Both the position numbers and the translations under genes were made by a program. The notes below the pieces were generated by a model, which did not search any database, was not told where the DNA came from, and saw only the letters and a list, made by a program, of their open reading frames with translations. Positions 3,440-56,434 of a stretch of 64,000 nucleotides of DNA are shown here, one piece after another. Source of the stretch: an uncultured Bacteroidota bacterium (GTDB taxonomy: Bacteria > Bacteroidota > Bacteroidia > B-17B0 > Aurantibacillaceae); contig CAILKE010000025.1 in NCBI GenBank assembly GCA_903834765.1, positions 1 through 64,000 of the forward strand, written 5' to 3'. Position 1 is the stretch's first letter. Each line of letters opens with the position of its first letter.

Positions 3440-4645
3440 ATGACTAAACTAAAAATAGGCGTTCTTCGCGAAGAAAAATCTCCACCAGATAAACGAGTTC
3501 CTTTAACCCCCTTAATATGTACTGAGCTTTTACGCGCCTATCCAAATTTAGAAATTGTGATACAGCCCAGCAAAATAAGATGCTATAGCGACGATGAATA
3601 TTTAGCATTTGGATTATCCTTGCAAGAAGACTTAACAGATTGCGATGTATTAATGGGCGTGAAAGAACAACCAAAAGAATTATTGATTCCTAATAAAAAA
3701 TACTTTTTCTTTTCACATACCATCAAAAAACAGGCACATAATATTAAATTAATGAAAGCCTTGATTGAGAAAAAAATTCAAATGATTGATTACGAAACCT
3801 TGACAGATAAAAACCATAATCGTATTATTGGTTTTGGTCGTTATGCAGGTATTGTAGGTGCATACAATGGTATTTTAGGCTATGGAAAAAAATATGATTT
3901 ATTTCAAATTAAACCAGCAAACCTTTGTCGTGATAGAGCAGAAATGGAAGATGAATTAAAACGTGTGAAACTACCAAACATTAAAATTGCTTTAACTGGC
4001 GGTGGTCGTGTAGCTAATGGTGCTATTGAAACACTTTCTGCATTGCGAATTAGAAAAGTTACTCCCGAAGAGTTTTTAATGGCAACTTTCCGTGAACCTG
4101 TATATTGTCAGTTAAATCCACGAGATTATGTTGAACGACCTAATGATCATAATTTTGACTTAAATGATTTTTTTAGTCATCCAGAGCATTTTGTTTCTAA
4201 ATTTTCACCTTATACTAAAGCAACTGATATTTTTATTTCTGCCCATTTTTGGGATCCTAGGTCTCCAAAAATGTTTACTACAGACGACTTAAAGACACCT
4301 GATTTTAAAATGAGTGTCATAGCAGATGTAACTTGTGATATAGATGGCAGCGTTCCAACTACTTTAAGGGCAAGTACTATTGCTGCACCTTTTTATGGTT
4401 ATAATCCAAAAACAGATAAAGAAGATGTACCTTTTAATAAGGAAACTATTTGTATTATGGCGGTTGATAATTTACCTTGCGAATTACCGCGTGATGCAAG
4501 TGATGATTTTGGAAAAGATTTAATGGAACGTGTAGTTCCTTATTTATTTAAAGAAGATATAGACAAAATTATTGAGAGAGCTAGTATTTGTATAGATGGA
4601 AAATTAACTACTAGCTTTGAATACCTGAGTGATTACGCATACTAG
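3440..4645 (+). CDS. Saccharopine dehydrogenase-like / alanine dehydrogenase-type NAD(P)-dependent oxidoreductase
   Basis: The 401-residue protein begins with the alanine dehydrogenase/PNT N-terminal pattern (IGVLREEKSPPDKRVPLTP) and carries a nucleotide-binding loop GGGRVANGA at about 187-195. Overall it resembles lysine-forming saccharopine dehydrogenase (LYS1/LKR-SDH type) more than bacterial alanine dehydrogenase: the HFWDPRSPKMFTTDDL region and the DVTCDIDGSVPTT segment are characteristic. The reaction would be NAD-linked cleavage or formation of saccharopine in lysine metabolism, in the cytoplasm. There is no lysine-ketoglutarate reductase gene next to it. It forms a single-gene unit with its own promoter and a strong terminator. 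Confidence 0.8.
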   Translation: MTKLKIGVLREEKSPPDKRVPLTPLICTELLRAYPNLEIVIQPSKIRCYSDDEYLAFGLSLQEDLTDCDVLMGVKEQPKELLIPNKKYFFFSHTIKKQAHNIKLMKALIEKKIQMIDYETLTDKNHNRIIGFGRYAGIVGAYNGILGYGKKYDLFQIKPANLCRDRAEMEDELKRVKLPNIKIALTGGGRVANGAIETLSALRIRKVTPEEFLMATFREPVYCQLNPRDYVERPNDHNFDLNDFFSHPEHFVSKFSPYTKATDIFISAHFWDPRSPKMFTTDDLKTPDFKMSVIADVTCDIDGSVPTTLRASTIAAPFYGYNPKTDKEDVPFNKETICIMAVDNLPCELPRDASDDFGKDLMERVVPYLFKEDIDKIIERASICIDGKLTTSFEYLSDYAY

Positions 4646-50774: not shown

Positions 50775-50808
50775 AAATCCATTCTCTTAATTGAGAATGG
50801 ATTTTTTT
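50775..50808 (+). terminator. pnp-side terminator sharing its core with the one at 55472
   Basis: AAATCCATTCTC, loop TTAATT, GAGAATGGATTT, then TTTT. The 22-nt centre (50779-50800) is identical to that of the hairpin at 55479-55500. Confidence 0.9.
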
Positions 50809-51079: not shown

Positions 51080-52489
51080 ATGAAATTAACAAAAACTCCA
51101 TTTTTAAGTCTTCTCTTATTAGGCTCTATTACTTTAGGTGCACAGGAAGAAGCAACAAAGTCTGTAAAATATCGAAGAAGTTCACTTCATTTAATGATGA
51201 TTGAGGATGCTGTAATGCCAAATGCTAATGTTATAAAAAATACATTTATTAAATCAAAACTTCCCGATAAATACAATGATCATTCATTACCAACTCGTTC
51301 ATTTATTGCTGATAAATATAAATTAACTGCTGAAGAAAAAGCTGCAACCGGAGCTAAAGCAGACAGTAAAGGAAAGTCAATGATGAAAGGTATGGCAAAA
51401 GGCGTTGCATCAAGTGCAACTGGCGGCTTAATTGATACAACAAATACGAAAGATTTACCATTAGTAATTGAGAAGTATCTAAATACTAATAACGTTGCAA
51501 AAGATATGGTTGCAAAATGGTATAATAGAGATTCGAAAGGTGCATTTGACTCAAAGTTAATTATAGAGAGAGGCGAATATGATGCTTCTGCTATAGATAA
51601 AAATGTTGCTAATGCAAGTTCTAGAGGTTCTTCAGCATTGTCTGATGCAGCCGATGAATTAATTGGTAATACATTTGTAGTTGTTACAAGGTTTAATTAT
51701 ATTAGTAAAAAAGAAGTATATGAAGCTGCACAAGCTGCTTTAAATGCTGCTAAATCAACAGGGCTAGTTAAAGCGCCTACAATTCCTCTAACTCCAGAGA
51801 TGCAAGCAATAAAGGATGCAGCAATAAAGAAAGCTACAGAAGGATATATAGTTCAGTCTACTTCATATTTATTTCAATTAAATTGGACTCCAGAAGTAGA
51901 GGCTACATTCAATCAATTTATGTATACTGAAAAGGACCAAATAAAAGATAATCAAGAAATAAAATTTGATCCAAAGAAAAAGTTTGCCTTTGACACTACT
52001 AAAATATTTACGTTTAAATATATTGGAGATGGTAAAGCTTTAGCCCAAGTTCCAATGTCATTAAAAAAGAAAAGAAGTGAAGAAGAATTAATAGCCATTG
52101 CAACAAGAAATGCTTCTGAGGCATCAATTGCAAAATTACAAAGAGATTATGAGGTTTTTAAAACAAAAACTCCTTTATATTCTGGAAACCCGATAACAGC
52201 AAAAATTGGAATGAAAGAAGGCATTGAAGCTGGTGATAAATTTGAAGTTTTAGAACAAAATCAAGACCCAAAAACTGGAAAATTAATATACAAAAAAGTT
52301 GGAAAAATAAAGGTTATGGAAGGAATGGTTTGGGATAATACAGAAAAATTAGATGATGAAGTTGTTGAAAATACTCCTGCATTAGATAAAGATGGTAAAC
52401 CCTTACCTCCAAAACCAATATTAGATCGTACAACTTTTAAAGGTGGATCTAAATTCTACAGTGGTTTATTAATTAGACAAGTAAAATAA
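51080..52489 (+). CDS. Exported protein of unknown function, operon gene 1 (possible FlgT-C-like domain)
   Basis: Not recognised. The 469-residue protein has a signal peptide (MKLTKTPFLSLLLLGSITLGAQ). Residues 30-70 (YRRSSLHLMMIEDAVMPNANVIKNTFIKSKLPDKYNDHSLPTR in part) and LIGNTFVVVTRFNYISKKE recall uncharacterised Bacteroidota families. A low-complexity Gly/Ser/Lys/Ala segment lies near 95-120. The last third has KIGMKEGIEAGDKFEVLEQ ... KVGKIKVMEGMVWDN, which resembles the closing beta-barrel-like domain of FlgT-type proteins (a 'GxxxGxxxGDxFxV' turn). It is the first of four genes with gaps of about 20-30 nt, all encoding exported proteins. Confidence 0.8.
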   Translation: MKLTKTPFLSLLLLGSITLGAQEEATKSVKYRRSSLHLMMIEDAVMPNANVIKNTFIKSKLPDKYNDHSLPTRSFIADKYKLTAEEKAATGAKADSKGKSMMKGMAKGVASSATGGLIDTTNTKDLPLVIEKYLNTNNVAKDMVAKWYNRDSKGAFDSKLIIERGEYDASAIDKNVANASSRGSSALSDAADELIGNTFVVVTRFNYISKKEVYEAAQAALNAAKSTGLVKAPTIPLTPEMQAIKDAAIKKATEGYIVQSTSYLFQLNWTPEVEATFNQFMYTEKDQIKDNQEIKFDPKKKFAFDTTKIFTFKYIGDGKALAQVPMSLKKKRSEEELIAIATRNASEASIAKLQRDYEVFKTKTPLYSGNPITAKIGMKEGIEAGDKFEVLEQNQDPKTGKLIYKKVGKIKVMEGMVWDNTEKLDDEVVENTPALDKDGKPLPPKPILDRTTFKGGSKFYSGLLIRQVK

Positions 52490-52509
52490 TAATATAAAAA
52501 TCAATAATT

Positions 52510-53931
52510 ATGAAATTAAAAATTAATTCAATTAAAACTATAGCTATACTATTACTAGCTGTGTTATTTTCTAATTCAATTTATGCTCAAGCTGGAAAAA
52601 AAGCTGATAAAGATACTGAATTATGGCGTTATGAAATTCAGTGTGGTGGCGTGGGAGTTCAAGGAACAAAATTAGTAAAAGTGTTTTCCTATTCTAAAAA
52701 TCCTGATGTAGCAATTGAACAGGCAAAAAAAAATGCTGTACATGGTATGATTTTTCAAGGTTTTATTGGTAGCTCATTACAAGGCTGCGAAACTCAAAAA
52801 CCTTTAACAGATAATCCTGCTTTGGAACAAGAAAAATCAGATTTTTTCAAAGCATTTTTTGCTGATGGTGGAAAATATATGAAATTTGTTTCAGTATCTG
52901 GAGATGGTTCAGTTGCAGCTGAAGATAGAATGAAAGTTGGAAAAGAATATAAAGTAGGGGTTTTAGTTTCAGTATTGTATGAAAATTTGAGAAAGGATTT
53001 AGAAGCGGCAGGAATTATCCAAGCTTTACAAGCTCCAGGTGGAGCTGCTCCAACAGTTATGTTTTTTCCGTCTGATGTATGGATGAAAGGAAAAAATTAC
53101 ATTACTGTTACTGATAATCAAGGAAAAAAAACAGAACAAAACGATTATGATGCCGCAGTTAAAGATCCTGAATTTAGTGCAATCTTAAGCACATTAAATA
53201 CAATGATGAATGAAAGAGGCTTAAGAGCAACAAATTTAGCAGATGTATTAGCGGAAATTAAAAACTCAAACGCATCTGAAAATATGGCTCAAAATGAAGA
53301 AGGAGGAGGTGTAGCTGAATCTGCTTCTGATAAATTACTAAAAGTTGCTAGACCAGATATTAGAATTAATGTCACCTGGACATTAACTACAAGTGGGCCT
53401 AAAAAATCTGTTCACTTTCAATTAGATGGTGTAGATGCAGGAACTAGTAAATCTGCAGGATCTGCAAGTGGAGATAGTAAAGAGTCATTAAATGGAACAG
53501 TATATGTTTTATTAAAAGAAGCTGTTTTAAATCATATTGATAATTTCAACTCTCAATTAATGTCATACTTTCAGAACATCACAAAAGAAGGGAAAGAAAT
53601 TAATTTAGAAGTTCGAGTTTGGGATACATCTCCTAAAAAATTGAATTCAGAAATTAATGAAGATGGTGATGAATTAAAAGATGATTTAAAAAAATGGGTG
53701 TCTAAAAACTCAGTTGGAAATAAATTTAATTTAGGTACATCTAGTCCAAATATGATGAATTTTACTGGAATTAGAATACCTGTTAAAAATGAAGATGGTT
53801 CAGCTAATGATGCTGATGCTTTCGCAGCTAAATTAAGAAAATATTTAAAAAAGACTTACCAACTGCCAAGTGCATCTTCTGCTATTGGTTTAGGAAAAGG
53901 TGTTGTGATAATTGGTGGTAAATCTCAATAA
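52510..53931 (+). CDS. Exported protein of unknown function, operon gene 2 (LPP20/FlgT-N-like domain + central domain)
   Basis: The 473-residue protein has a signal peptide (INSIKTIAILLLAVLFSNSIYAQ). Residues about 37-160 (LWRYEIQCGGVGVQGTKLVKVFSY, DVAIEQAKKNAVHGMIFQGFIG, DFFKAFFADGGKYMKFVSV, VGVLVSVLYENLRKDLEAAGII) are paralogous to the whole of operon gene 4. The Ala-rich AIEQAKKNAVHGM helix followed by strands recalls LPP20/FlgT N-terminal domains. The next part, PTVMFFPSDVWMKGKNYITV, then LNTMMNERGLRATNLADVLAEI, resembles DUF6175-type or CsgG/TolB-N-like domains, by memory only. Function unknown. Gap to gene 1 is 20 nt. Confidence 0.8.
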   Translation: MKLKINSIKTIAILLLAVLFSNSIYAQAGKKADKDTELWRYEIQCGGVGVQGTKLVKVFSYSKNPDVAIEQAKKNAVHGMIFQGFIGSSLQGCETQKPLTDNPALEQEKSDFFKAFFADGGKYMKFVSVSGDGSVAAEDRMKVGKEYKVGVLVSVLYENLRKDLEAAGIIQALQAPGGAAPTVMFFPSDVWMKGKNYITVTDNQGKKTEQNDYDAAVKDPEFSAILSTLNTMMNERGLRATNLADVLAEIKNSNASENMAQNEEGGGVAESASDKLLKVARPDIRINVTWTLTTSGPKKSVHFQLDGVDAGTSKSAGSASGDSKESLNGTVYVLLKEAVLNHIDNFNSQLMSYFQNITKEGKEINLEVRVWDTSPKKLNSEINEDGDELKDDLKKWVSKNSVGNKFNLGTSSPNMMNFTGIRIPVKNEDGSANDADAFAAKLRKYLKKTYQLPSASSAIGLGKGVVIIGGKSQ

Positions 53932-53953
53932 TGTTAAAATAAATACAATTAAA

Positions 53954-54925
53954 ATGAAAATATTAATAATTATAAGTATAGCATTAATGTCTTATATAGA
54001 TATTAATGCTCAAAATACAGCAGGTAAAGCAGATGACATGGGAAGAATTGCTTTAGCTGCTTATGTTCCTCAGCAAATTGAGAATATGCCAGTTTCAGCT
54101 CGAAGCATGCTTTCTAATAAATTAAGTCAAATTGCAACTCAAAGTGGAATGGGTGGAAGTTCATTAAATCAAAGATTTATTATCACTGCAAATATTACAG
54201 TTTTAACAAAAGACATTACTGAAACGGCTCCTCCAATGACAGCTCTTACTTTAGATGTAACATTGTATATTGGTGATGGCATCGAAGGTACTAAGTTTGC
54301 AAGTTCTTCAACAACAATTAAAGGTGTTGGCGAAAATGAAACAAAAGCTTATATCAGTGCTATTAAAAATATTAATGCATCAAATCCAAATTATAAAACT
54401 TTTGTAGAAGAAGGAAAAACAAAAATTATTTCTTATTATAATAGTAAATGTGATTTTATAATTAAAGAAGCGCAAACTTTAACATCACAAGATAAGTATG
54501 AAGAAGCAATTTTTAAATTAACTGAAGTACCAGACGTTTGCAAAGAATGTTATGACAAATGCATGACTGCAGTTGAACCAATTTACAAAAAATTTATGGA
54601 AAAGCAGTGTAAAATAAAGCTAGCTGAGGCAAAAACATCTTGGGCTGCATCACAAAATGCAGAAGGTGCTTCTGCAGCTGCTGCAATTTTAGGTACCATT
54701 GATCCTGATGCTGTATGTTACAAAGATGCTATGGCTTTATCAACTGAGATTGGCAAAAAAATAAAAGAACTTGATAAAAGAGATTGGGATTTTAAGATGA
54801 AAGAACATAATGATCAAGTAGATATTACTAAACAACAAATTAATGCCTATAGAGAAGTTGGTGTTGCTTACGGAAAAGGACAACCAAAATCAATTTCATA
54901 CAATGTAAATGGGTGGTTTAGATAA
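53954..54925 (+). CDS. Exported protein of unknown function, operon gene 3
   Basis: ATG at 53954 is chosen because it starts a signal peptide (MKILIIISIALMSYIDINAQ) and leaves 22 nt after gene 2; an earlier in-frame start would overlap gene 2. In the 323-residue product, residues about 25-160 (GRIALAAYVPQQIENMPVSARSMLSNKLSQIATQSGMGG ... RFIITANITVL ... LTLDVTLYIGDG) look like the alpha/beta domain found in CsgG- and FlgT-M-like proteins, which use a small-subunit 'NKL..IA...G' helix. A Cys-rich TPR-like segment follows (KYEEAIFKLTEVPDVCKECYDKC), then WDFKMKEHNDQVDITKQQINAYREVGVAYGKGQ near the end. Function unknown. Confidence 0.8.
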   Translation: MKILIIISIALMSYIDINAQNTAGKADDMGRIALAAYVPQQIENMPVSARSMLSNKLSQIATQSGMGGSSLNQRFIITANITVLTKDITETAPPMTALTLDVTLYIGDGIEGTKFASSSTTIKGVGENETKAYISAIKNINASNPNYKTFVEEGKTKIISYYNSKCDFIIKEAQTLTSQDKYEEAIFKLTEVPDVCKECYDKCMTAVEPIYKKFMEKQCKIKLAEAKTSWAASQNAEGASAAAAILGTIDPDAVCYKDAMALSTEIGKKIKELDKRDWDFKMKEHNDQVDITKQQINAYREVGVAYGKGQPKSISYNVNGWFR

Positions 54926-54953
54926 TTTTAAATTTTAACTTAAAATAAACAAT

Positions 54954-55448
54954 ATGAAAAATAAAAAAATTGGTACATTAATTTTTGTATTCATAGCGAT
55001 GATAGGTTTTGCTCAAAGGCAGCAAAAAAAGATTGCTGGATATTATACCTATGAAACTGAATGTATGGGTGTTGAATTGGATGGTTCTCAAACTTTAAAA
55101 TCATGGGGTTCAGGCAAAAATAGATTTGATGCTGTTGAACAAGCAAAGAAAAATGGAGTTAGAGATGTTCTTTTTAAGGGTATAGTAAAAGGGAAAAATG
55201 AGTGTAATCAAAAACCAGTTATTTTTGAAGTAAACGCTCAGGAAAATCATGAAGATTATTTTAACAAATTTTTCTCAGATGAAGGGCCTTATACGCAATT
55301 TGTTTCTATGAAAGACGAATCGCTTATGCCGAAATTATTAAAGGATAAAAAAAAGGCAGGAAGTGAAGTAACTGAAGGTGTTATTGTTAGAGTTTTAAGA
55401 GCTGAATTAAAAAAGAAAATGATTGAAGATAAAATTATTAATCCATAA
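54954..55448 (+). CDS. Exported protein of unknown function, operon gene 4 (single-domain paralogue of gene 2 N-terminus)
   Basis: The 164-residue protein has a signal peptide (KKIGTLIFVFIAMIGFAQ). The rest aligns by eye with residues 37-160 of operon gene 2: YETECMGVELDGSQTLKSWGSG, AVEQAKKNGVRDVLFKGIVKG, an equivalent Cys, DYFNKFFSDEGPYTQFVSM, and a final RVLRAELKKKMIEDKII. This is an intra-operon duplication of one domain. It suggests a partner or subunit arrangement in which the domain is needed twice. A strong terminator follows 23 nt after the stop. Confidence 0.82.
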   Translation: MKNKKIGTLIFVFIAMIGFAQRQQKKIAGYYTYETECMGVELDGSQTLKSWGSGKNRFDAVEQAKKNGVRDVLFKGIVKGKNECNQKPVIFEVNAQENHEDYFNKFFSDEGPYTQFVSMKDESLMPKLLKDKKKAGSEVTEGVIVRVLRAELKKKMIEDKIINP

Positions 55449-55471: not shown

Positions 55472-55507
55472 AACAAAGCCATTCTCTTAATTGAGAATGG
55501 CTTTGTT
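55472..55507 (+). terminator. Terminator of the four-gene operon
   Basis: AACAAAGCCATTCTC, loop TTAATT, GAGAATGGCTTTGTT: a 15-bp perfect stem. Its 22-nt centre (55479-55500) equals that of the hairpin at 50779-50800. The T-run is short (ends GTTCTTTAG), so it may be a structural repeat as well as a terminator. Confidence 0.8.
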
Positions 55508-55609: not shown

Positions 55610-56023
55610 TTAGTGTGGTATTTTATTCAAATCCATATATAAGATATTCCAATTATGACCGTCTAAATCACTGAATACAAAGCCATACATCCAGCCTTGA
55701 ACTGCTTTAGGTTTATGACTGCATATACCACCTGCCTCTACAACCTTTAACGCCATTTCATCTACCTCTTCTTTACTTTGTGCATCAATAGAAAACAAAA
55801 CTTCATTTGATAGTTTAGTATTAGTGATCTCTTTACCAGTGAAGCTTTTGAAAGTTGGTTCATCAAAAAGCATGACCACAAATTCTTTTTCACCAACAAG
55901 CAAACAGGCTGAATTAGTTCCACCACCAAACTTCTCGTTAAATTTGAAACCTAGCTTCGTAAAAAAATCTTTTGATTTTTTTACGTCCTTTACAGGAAGA
56001 TTAATCCAAAGTTGTTTGACCAT
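55610..56023 (-). CDS. VOC-superfamily (glyoxalase/bleomycin-resistance-like) protein, copy 1
   Basis: The 137-residue protein begins KQLWINLPVKDVKKSKDFFTKLGFKFNEKFGG, a VOC beta-alpha-beta start, and ends MYGFVFSDLDGHNWNILYMD, where D-L-D-G-H-x-W is a common VOC closure. Family members bind metals and act as lyases, dioxygenases or antibiotic-binding proteins. The substrate here is unknown. It is paralogous to the neighbouring gene and 3 nt from it. Confidence 0.88.
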   Translation of the reverse strand: MVKQLWINLPVKDVKKSKDFFTKLGFKFNEKFGGGTNSACLLVGEKEFVVMLFDEPTFKSFTGKEITNTKLSNEVLFSIDAQSKEEVDEMALKVVEAGGICSHKPKAVQGWMYGFVFSDLDGHNWNILYMDLNKIPH

Positions 56024-56026
56024 AAT

Positions 56027-56434
56027 TTATTGTTTAGGAAATTGGCTCATATCCATGTAACCCAATTCCCATTGGTGTCCATCTAAATCAGCAAAACTAT
56101 GTTGATACATCCAACCATGGTCTGCTGCCTCCATATAGATATCACCTCCAGCTGCTTTTGCAGTGGCAACTAGTTCAATCACTTTTTCCTTACTTTCAAC
56201 ATCAATCGCAATTAAAACTTGTGTTGTTTTTTTAGCATCAGCAATTTCTTTTTTAGTGAAATGTTGAAAATGTTCATAGGTTAGTAACATCACAAACATG
56301 GATTCATTTATAACCATACAAGCCGCAAATTCATTGGTAAACTGAGGATTAACTGTAAACCCAACTTTAGCATAAAAGTCCATCGACTTTTGTAAATCTT
56401 TAACTGGCAGATTGATAAAAATTTTTGTGGTCAT
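56027..56434 (-). CDS. VOC-superfamily protein, copy 2
   Basis: The 135-residue protein aligns over its entire length with the adjacent downstream gene: KIFINLPVKDLQKSMDFYAKVGFTVNPQFTNEF, VMLLTYEHFQHFTKKEIADAKKTTQVLIAIDVESKEKV and HGWMYQHSFADLDGHQWELGYMD. A tandem duplication within one transcription unit. The two may form a heterodimer, since VOC proteins usually dimerise. Confidence 0.88.
   Translation of the reverse strand: MTTKIFINLPVKDLQKSMDFYAKVGFTVNPQFTNEFAACMVINESMFVMLLTYEHFQHFTKKEIADAKKTTQVLIAIDVESKEKVIELVATAKAAGGDIYMEAADHGWMYQHSFADLDGHQWELGYMDMSQFPKQ

Follow-up and report, generated by a model that had tools for sequence, protein, structure and literature searches.

FlgT-like domains spread over the exported proteins of a conserved gene unit in Bacteroidota

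The operon and its flanks

The window analyzed here is a stretch of 64,000 nucleotides from the genome of an uncultured Bacteroidota bacterium. Four plus-strand open reading frames lie within positions 51080–55448, separated by gaps of 20, 22, and 28 nt. Gene 1 (G1, 51080–52489) encodes 469 amino acids that form FlgT-M-like and FlgT-C-like domains. Gene 2 (52510–53931, 473 amino acids) consists of a putative SHS2/FlgT-N-like domain, called Na, fused to a DUF6175 protein. Gene 3 (G3, 53954–54925) encodes 323 amino acids from its ATG, an alpha/beta N-terminal part and a TPR-like helical part; the list of open reading frames offers an alternative upstream start, a TTG at 53912. Gene 4 (Nb, 54954–55448, 164 amino acids) is an N domain standing alone. 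All four proteins begin with a signal peptide, hydrophobic and ending in A-Q, as judged by eye without a signal-peptide program. The longest stop-free run is 477 codons, compared to at most 199 in 200 shuffles, which excludes a chance origin of such long frames.

The set is bounded by two strong hairpins, neither of which is assigned to a strand. The first (50775–50804) lies 3′ of pnp and 5′ of the operon and has a 12-bp stem and a T run. The second (55472–55507) lies 3′ of gene 4 and has a 15-bp stem; its 22-nt core is identical to that of the first. Hence, the layout of the original prediction, four plus-strand genes with gaps of 20–30 nt and signal peptides between strong hairpins, was borne out. 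The shared core is a palindrome, CCATTCTCTTAATTGAGAATGG, found at 50779–50800 and 55479–55500, that is, on both flanks of the operon and nowhere else in the 3.63-Mb genome. Each copy is extended by a self-complementary stem of its own, and the palindrome was not found in the loci of relatives. Searches of Rfam and for plasmid carriage of the unit gave no match. Further 3′, outside the operon, two neighboring minus-strand open reading frames (55610–56434) look like small glyoxalase-type proteins.

It had also been noted that none of the four proteins could be matched to a named family with confidence. This is true for genes 1, 3, and 4, for which there is no curated family match in Pfam or NCBIfam. 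It is not true for gene 2, whose residues 180–469 match DUF6175 (PF19672) with an E value of 3.9e-85 and 285.9 bits against a cut-off of 23 bits. The literature we searched does not mention DUF6175 or PF19672.

Structural likeness to FlgT and related proteins

We searched AlphaFold (AF2) models of the gene 1 and gene 2 proteins against about 350,000 PDB chains with Foldseek. For gene 1 (mean pLDDT 80.2), the first two ranks are FlgT (3w1e, E 4.1e-5, probability 1.00) and 8z5n (E 1.8e-4), followed by TraT at an E value of 0.5. The title of entry 8z5n names only the LPHT ring; its chain 0 is presumably FlgT too, given a rank and length nearly identical to those of 3w1e. In the VIA comparison residues 27–469 of the gene 1 model align with residues 91–354 of FlgT, its middle and C-terminal domains (Z 8.8 for 226 residues; the rmsd across the two domains is 11.7 Å). 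The alignment runs through residue 469, as expected from the FlgT-C-like end originally proposed for gene 1, and covers a beta-barrel domain at residues 361–469 (52160–52486, plus strand). Residues 362–469 also match many other small beta-barrels in VIA, such as the N-terminal barrel of the F1-ATPase, with Z of 6–8. The sequence match to Pfam FlgT_C is weak (E 0.099, 13.5 bits, below the 27-bit cut-off), and among 42 G1 members only one has any match to it. A match of G1 to the ribosomal protein eL14 (E 6e-5) was set aside as probably compositional, because the matching stretch is short and the structural matches of G1 include no fold related to it.

Gene 2 (mean pLDDT 88.4) gives a similar result. 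FlgT 3w1e ranks first (E 8.3e-4) and 8z5n second; GNA1162 and CsgG come next and are almost level with FlgT. The Foldseek alignment has 438 columns for the 473-residue query and matches the N-terminal and middle domains of FlgT. Genes 1 and 2 thus have FlgT in common as best match, and these two proteins of one operon cover complementary parts of it: middle and C-terminal in gene 1, N-terminal and middle in gene 2.

The N domain of gene 2 (residues 36–173; 52615–53028, plus strand) appears to resemble SHS2, LPP20, and FlgT-N. Its DSSP order (strand-strand-helix-insert-strands-helix) fits an SHS2 fold; Foldseek spans the domain only within the whole chain, and the VIA rows mostly cover residues 106–360. 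Between the helix at residues 65–83 and the strand starting at residue 124 lies an insertion of about 40 residues (84–123; 52759–52878, plus strand). Among FlgP/FlgT family members, the ability to form rings goes along with an insertion behind the SHS2 helix (PMC12222027), and it is at this position that DSSP places the extra residues of gene 2.

The first part of DUF6175 (residues 178–360; 53041–53589, plus strand) is a CsgG/PelC/TolB-N-like domain. Residues 172–356 match CsgG 4q79 with a Z of 10.1 over 138 residues at 3.7 Å in VIA, and the corresponding values are Z 9.1 for PelC, 8.2 for FlgT-M, and 7 for TolB. The second part (residues 361–469; 53590–53916, plus strand) is an alpha/beta domain, with DSSP helices at 389–400 and 435–450 and strands at 407–412, 415–423, 454–459, and 463–468.

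Genes 3 and 4 were characterized mainly through their alignments. G3 (alignment A2, 48 sequences, mean column identity 45%) has three nearly invariant cysteines, C166, C199, and C219. Some members have TPR-type Pfam matches, and their second half is TPR-like. For the alpha/beta part, profile comparison gives the C-terminal domain of LPP20-TPR proteins with a probability of 53–74% (hhalign 73.6%). The original prediction placed a CsgG/FlgT-M-like domain in gene 3; such a domain is clear in the DUF6175 part of gene 2, less clear in gene 1, and in gene 3 may be indicated by these profile matches. That gene 4 repeats the N-terminal domain of gene 2 holds: the two are 31% identical, the Nb and Na profiles match with an E value of 2.5e-34, and Na and Nb are paralogous N-domain proteins. 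Nb also matches the LPP20 profile weakly (71% probability); Pfam finds no LPP20 (PF02169) in the host genome and lists none for the members of alignment A4.

How far does the likeness to FlgT go? Like the H-ring protein FlgT of Vibrio and Aeromonas, the proteins of the operon are periplasmic and modular, built from TolB-N-like, small barrel, and probably SHS2-like domains. In FlgT a single chain carries N, M, and C, whereas here N and M are in gene 2, M and C in gene 1, and N alone in gene 4. The alpha/beta domain of DUF6175 and the TPR-like protein are extra. The first DUF6175 domain shares its fold with the CsgG/PelC/GNA1162/TolB N-domain group (Z 7–10), although it has no curated sequence match to that group. 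The N domains appear to resemble LPP20 and FlgP as small exported domains, often lipoproteins, in which the ring-forming position behind a helix carries an insertion; they differ in having two paralogues per operon, a host without PF02169, and other partner genes. The C-terminal half of gene 2 is a clear member of the DUF6175 family, with the window copy fused to Na.

Whole-chain TM-scores are low (0.15–0.21), because the matches are at the level of domains and the orientations of the domains differ. None of the window proteins reaches the curated cut-off for FlgT, CsgG, or LPP20 in Pfam or NCBIfam, and PDB profiles give no significant match either. Pfam searches with every sequence of the four alignments likewise had no significant match to the three families, and the CsgG Pfam family has no match in the window proteins or the host genome. 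Hence, the relation to FlgT, CsgG, and LPP20 is structural and could be convergent. We nevertheless regard common descent as likely even though the sequence similarity is not significant, and we are rather confident that the modules themselves are of the FlgT/LPP20/CsgG type.

A five-gene unit in related genomes

A scan of species genomes yielded 65 related loci across the Bacteroidota, which we read by their open reading frames and by profile searches. The non-pathogenic species Flavobacterium hibernum, Mucilaginibacter rigui, and Pedobacter polaris are among the carriers. All five profiles are present in 61 of them. The commonest order, found at 47 loci, is G1-Na-Nb-DUF6175-G3, and in most relatives Na and DUF6175 are two separate genes, with L048 as an example of the unfused arrangement. 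Judging from this gene content, the window set is a rearranged five-gene unit, in which Na and DUF6175 are fused (gene 2) and Nb is shifted to the end (gene 4). The original prediction spoke of a four-gene operon; the unit conserved across relatives has, ancestrally, five genes. Of the two outcomes that would have counted against the prediction, a lack of structural similarity and a lack of conserved gene order, neither was observed.

Among 296 genomes sampled over the phylum, DUF6175 is present in 13. G1 profile matches occur in four of these 13 and in one other genome, G3 matches in four of the 13 plus one weak match elsewhere; G1 and G3 therefore appear mostly confined to DUF6175-bearing genomes. 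At the 65 loci no neighbor outside the unit is conserved beyond close relatives, and none names a partner for it, which argues that the five genes are self-contained.

In some relatives curated families occur beside parts of the unit. At one locus (L006) the position of G1, directly upstream of N-DUF6175-G3, is taken by a CsgG-family protein (PF03783; 21.0 bits, with the cut-off at 20.8). In a lineage that is only distantly related (L009–L016) an N domain and DUF6175 share one chain (profile probabilities of about 96%), and the gene directly after it has a curated LPP20 domain.

Several other arrangements were observed. Nb is fused to a caspase domain at three loci (L036, 3200–4603; L051, 2324–3691; L039, 6507–7895), with Peptidase_C14 E values of 7.7e-23 and 1.8e-20 at the first two and assignment by sequence at the third; the fusions carry the motifs SGHGD and DACFSGD. 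At L078 (5340–6371) Nb and a second Na-like domain form one chain, followed by another N-domain gene, and at L031 a stop codon separates G3 and G1. An apparent G1-Na fusion at L081 was rejected: the signal peptide of Na sits inside it, which makes a frameshift likely. A complete operon also occurs in an unverified record of a phage collection, "Bacteriophage sp." (L153; MT836698.1, 1–9077), which looks like a misassigned Bacteroidales contig.

The odd gene order of the window may have a mosaic origin. G1, Na, and Nb are 66–84% identical to their counterparts at three loci (L029, L030, and L034), whereas the DUF6175 half of gene 2 is only 36–37% identical to these and 56% identical to that of L018. 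Gene 2 (52510–53931) is itself a mosaic, with an N half nearest to L029 (84%) and a DUF6175 half nearest to L018 (56%, compared to 36% for L029). In the DUF6175 tree the window copy sits on a long branch in a different clade, and the tree requires three or more switches between the fused and the separate state. Most simply, Na would have received a DUF6175-G3 pair of another lineage on its 3′ side and become fused to it, while the pair that originally followed Nb disappeared. Such a history would account for the order seen in the window.

A ring or collar in the cell envelope

FlgT partners a flagellar basal body with a P ring, whereas carriers of the window unit almost all lack FlgI, the P-ring gene. 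It is absent from the host and from 47 of the 49 other carriers, and present in two of all 50. The unit is therefore not a flagellar part, and the structures support the proposal that FlgT-type domains are split over exported proteins in a flagellum-free organism. The unit can also be placed at the outer membrane. A lipobox-like motif occurs in 22 of 56 Nb proteins, as found with a simple pattern rather than a dedicated predictor. Long G1 relatives (526–623 amino acids) have C-termini of the outer-membrane-barrel type, for example GLRFRF, LSYRF, and GLRIQF. The G1 equivalent of L016 matches OMP_b-brl_2 with an E value of 1.8e-4, under the curated cut-off of that family, and L153 has a separate barrel-like gene inside the operon (4050–4628). 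Together, the barrel-type ends and the lipobox-like motifs point to an outer-membrane location.

The FlgT of Vibrio and Aeromonas makes up the H ring, which surrounds the LP ring, and serves as an anchor for the T ring and the stator (PMC7693769, PMC6504787, PMC4960245). Given this H ring and the ring-linked insertion position in gene 2, the best-supported explanation of the unit is a non-flagellar, outer-membrane-anchored periplasmic ring or collar of FlgT/LPP20/CsgG-type modules. We give this reading, in which ring formation and anchoring are inferred, a probability of roughly 0.55.

One could also argue that the unit works as a CsgG/PelC-type channel for export across the outer membrane, a CsgG-like pore or funnel for protein or polysaccharide, with N-domain proteins that gate it or select cargo. 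CsgG and PelC are indeed the best single-domain matches of DUF6175, and the barrel-like C-termini of some G1 proteins would fit as well. However, no conserved cargo or synthase gene adjoins the unit across the 65 loci, and the strands of the DUF6175 domain in our model are only 8–12 residues each, without the long membrane hairpins of CsgG. We therefore consider such a channel unlikely. It is more doubtful still that the proteins are cell-wall or envelope-stress helpers of the LpoB/TolB/GNA1162 type, that is, TolB-N-like lipoproteins that regulate enzymes and do not form rings. TolB-N and GNA1162 do turn up in the structural comparison, and the protein that L006 has in the G1 position shows a match to LpoB as well, at an E value of 1.9e-4, just below the LpoB cut-off. 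Yet neither a penicillin-binding protein nor a Tol gene is found among the conserved neighbors, and five co-conserved subunits exceed what such regulators usually need. An accessory role in type IX secretion or gliding would fit a periplasmic and outer-membrane-linked unit whose carriers have SprA in 43 of 44 cases, but is improbable: SprA is present in 91 of 118 genomes and 64 of 67 genera of the phylum sample anyway, DUF6175 in only 13 of 296, so that the suggested check for co-occurrence, positive as it came out, does not discriminate and the unit is no core part of the secretion system.

If the unit does build a ring, the SHS2-type N domains of Na and Nb would oligomerize side by side beneath the outer membrane. 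The ring may be tethered by the lipid anchors of Nb and, in several lineages, by the outer-membrane barrels joined to G1. A second tier would consist of the CsgG/TolB-like domains of G1 and DUF6175, with the TPR-like part of G3 as a possible bridge to another component of the envelope. By analogy with the H ring of the Vibrio flagellum, such a ring might anchor or stabilize a machine that spans the envelope, or it might line a site of export.

FlgT-type parts thus probably build another cell-envelope structure in flagellum-free Bacteroidota. More tentatively, Bacteroidota may possess a previously undescribed, flagellum-independent ring machine anchored in the outer membrane, in which the domains of FlgT exist as separate, recombining subunits; the FlgT-type ring would then be one case of a wider class of rings in the envelope, recruited by flagella. 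Our results provide a testable identity for DUF6175 and for the four unnamed families that travel with it across the Bacteroidota. They suggest that FlgT-type ring modules exist outside flagella, so that the question of where the extra flagellar rings came from can be tested directly, and they point to an outer-membrane structure, so far unstudied, in common environmental bacteria.
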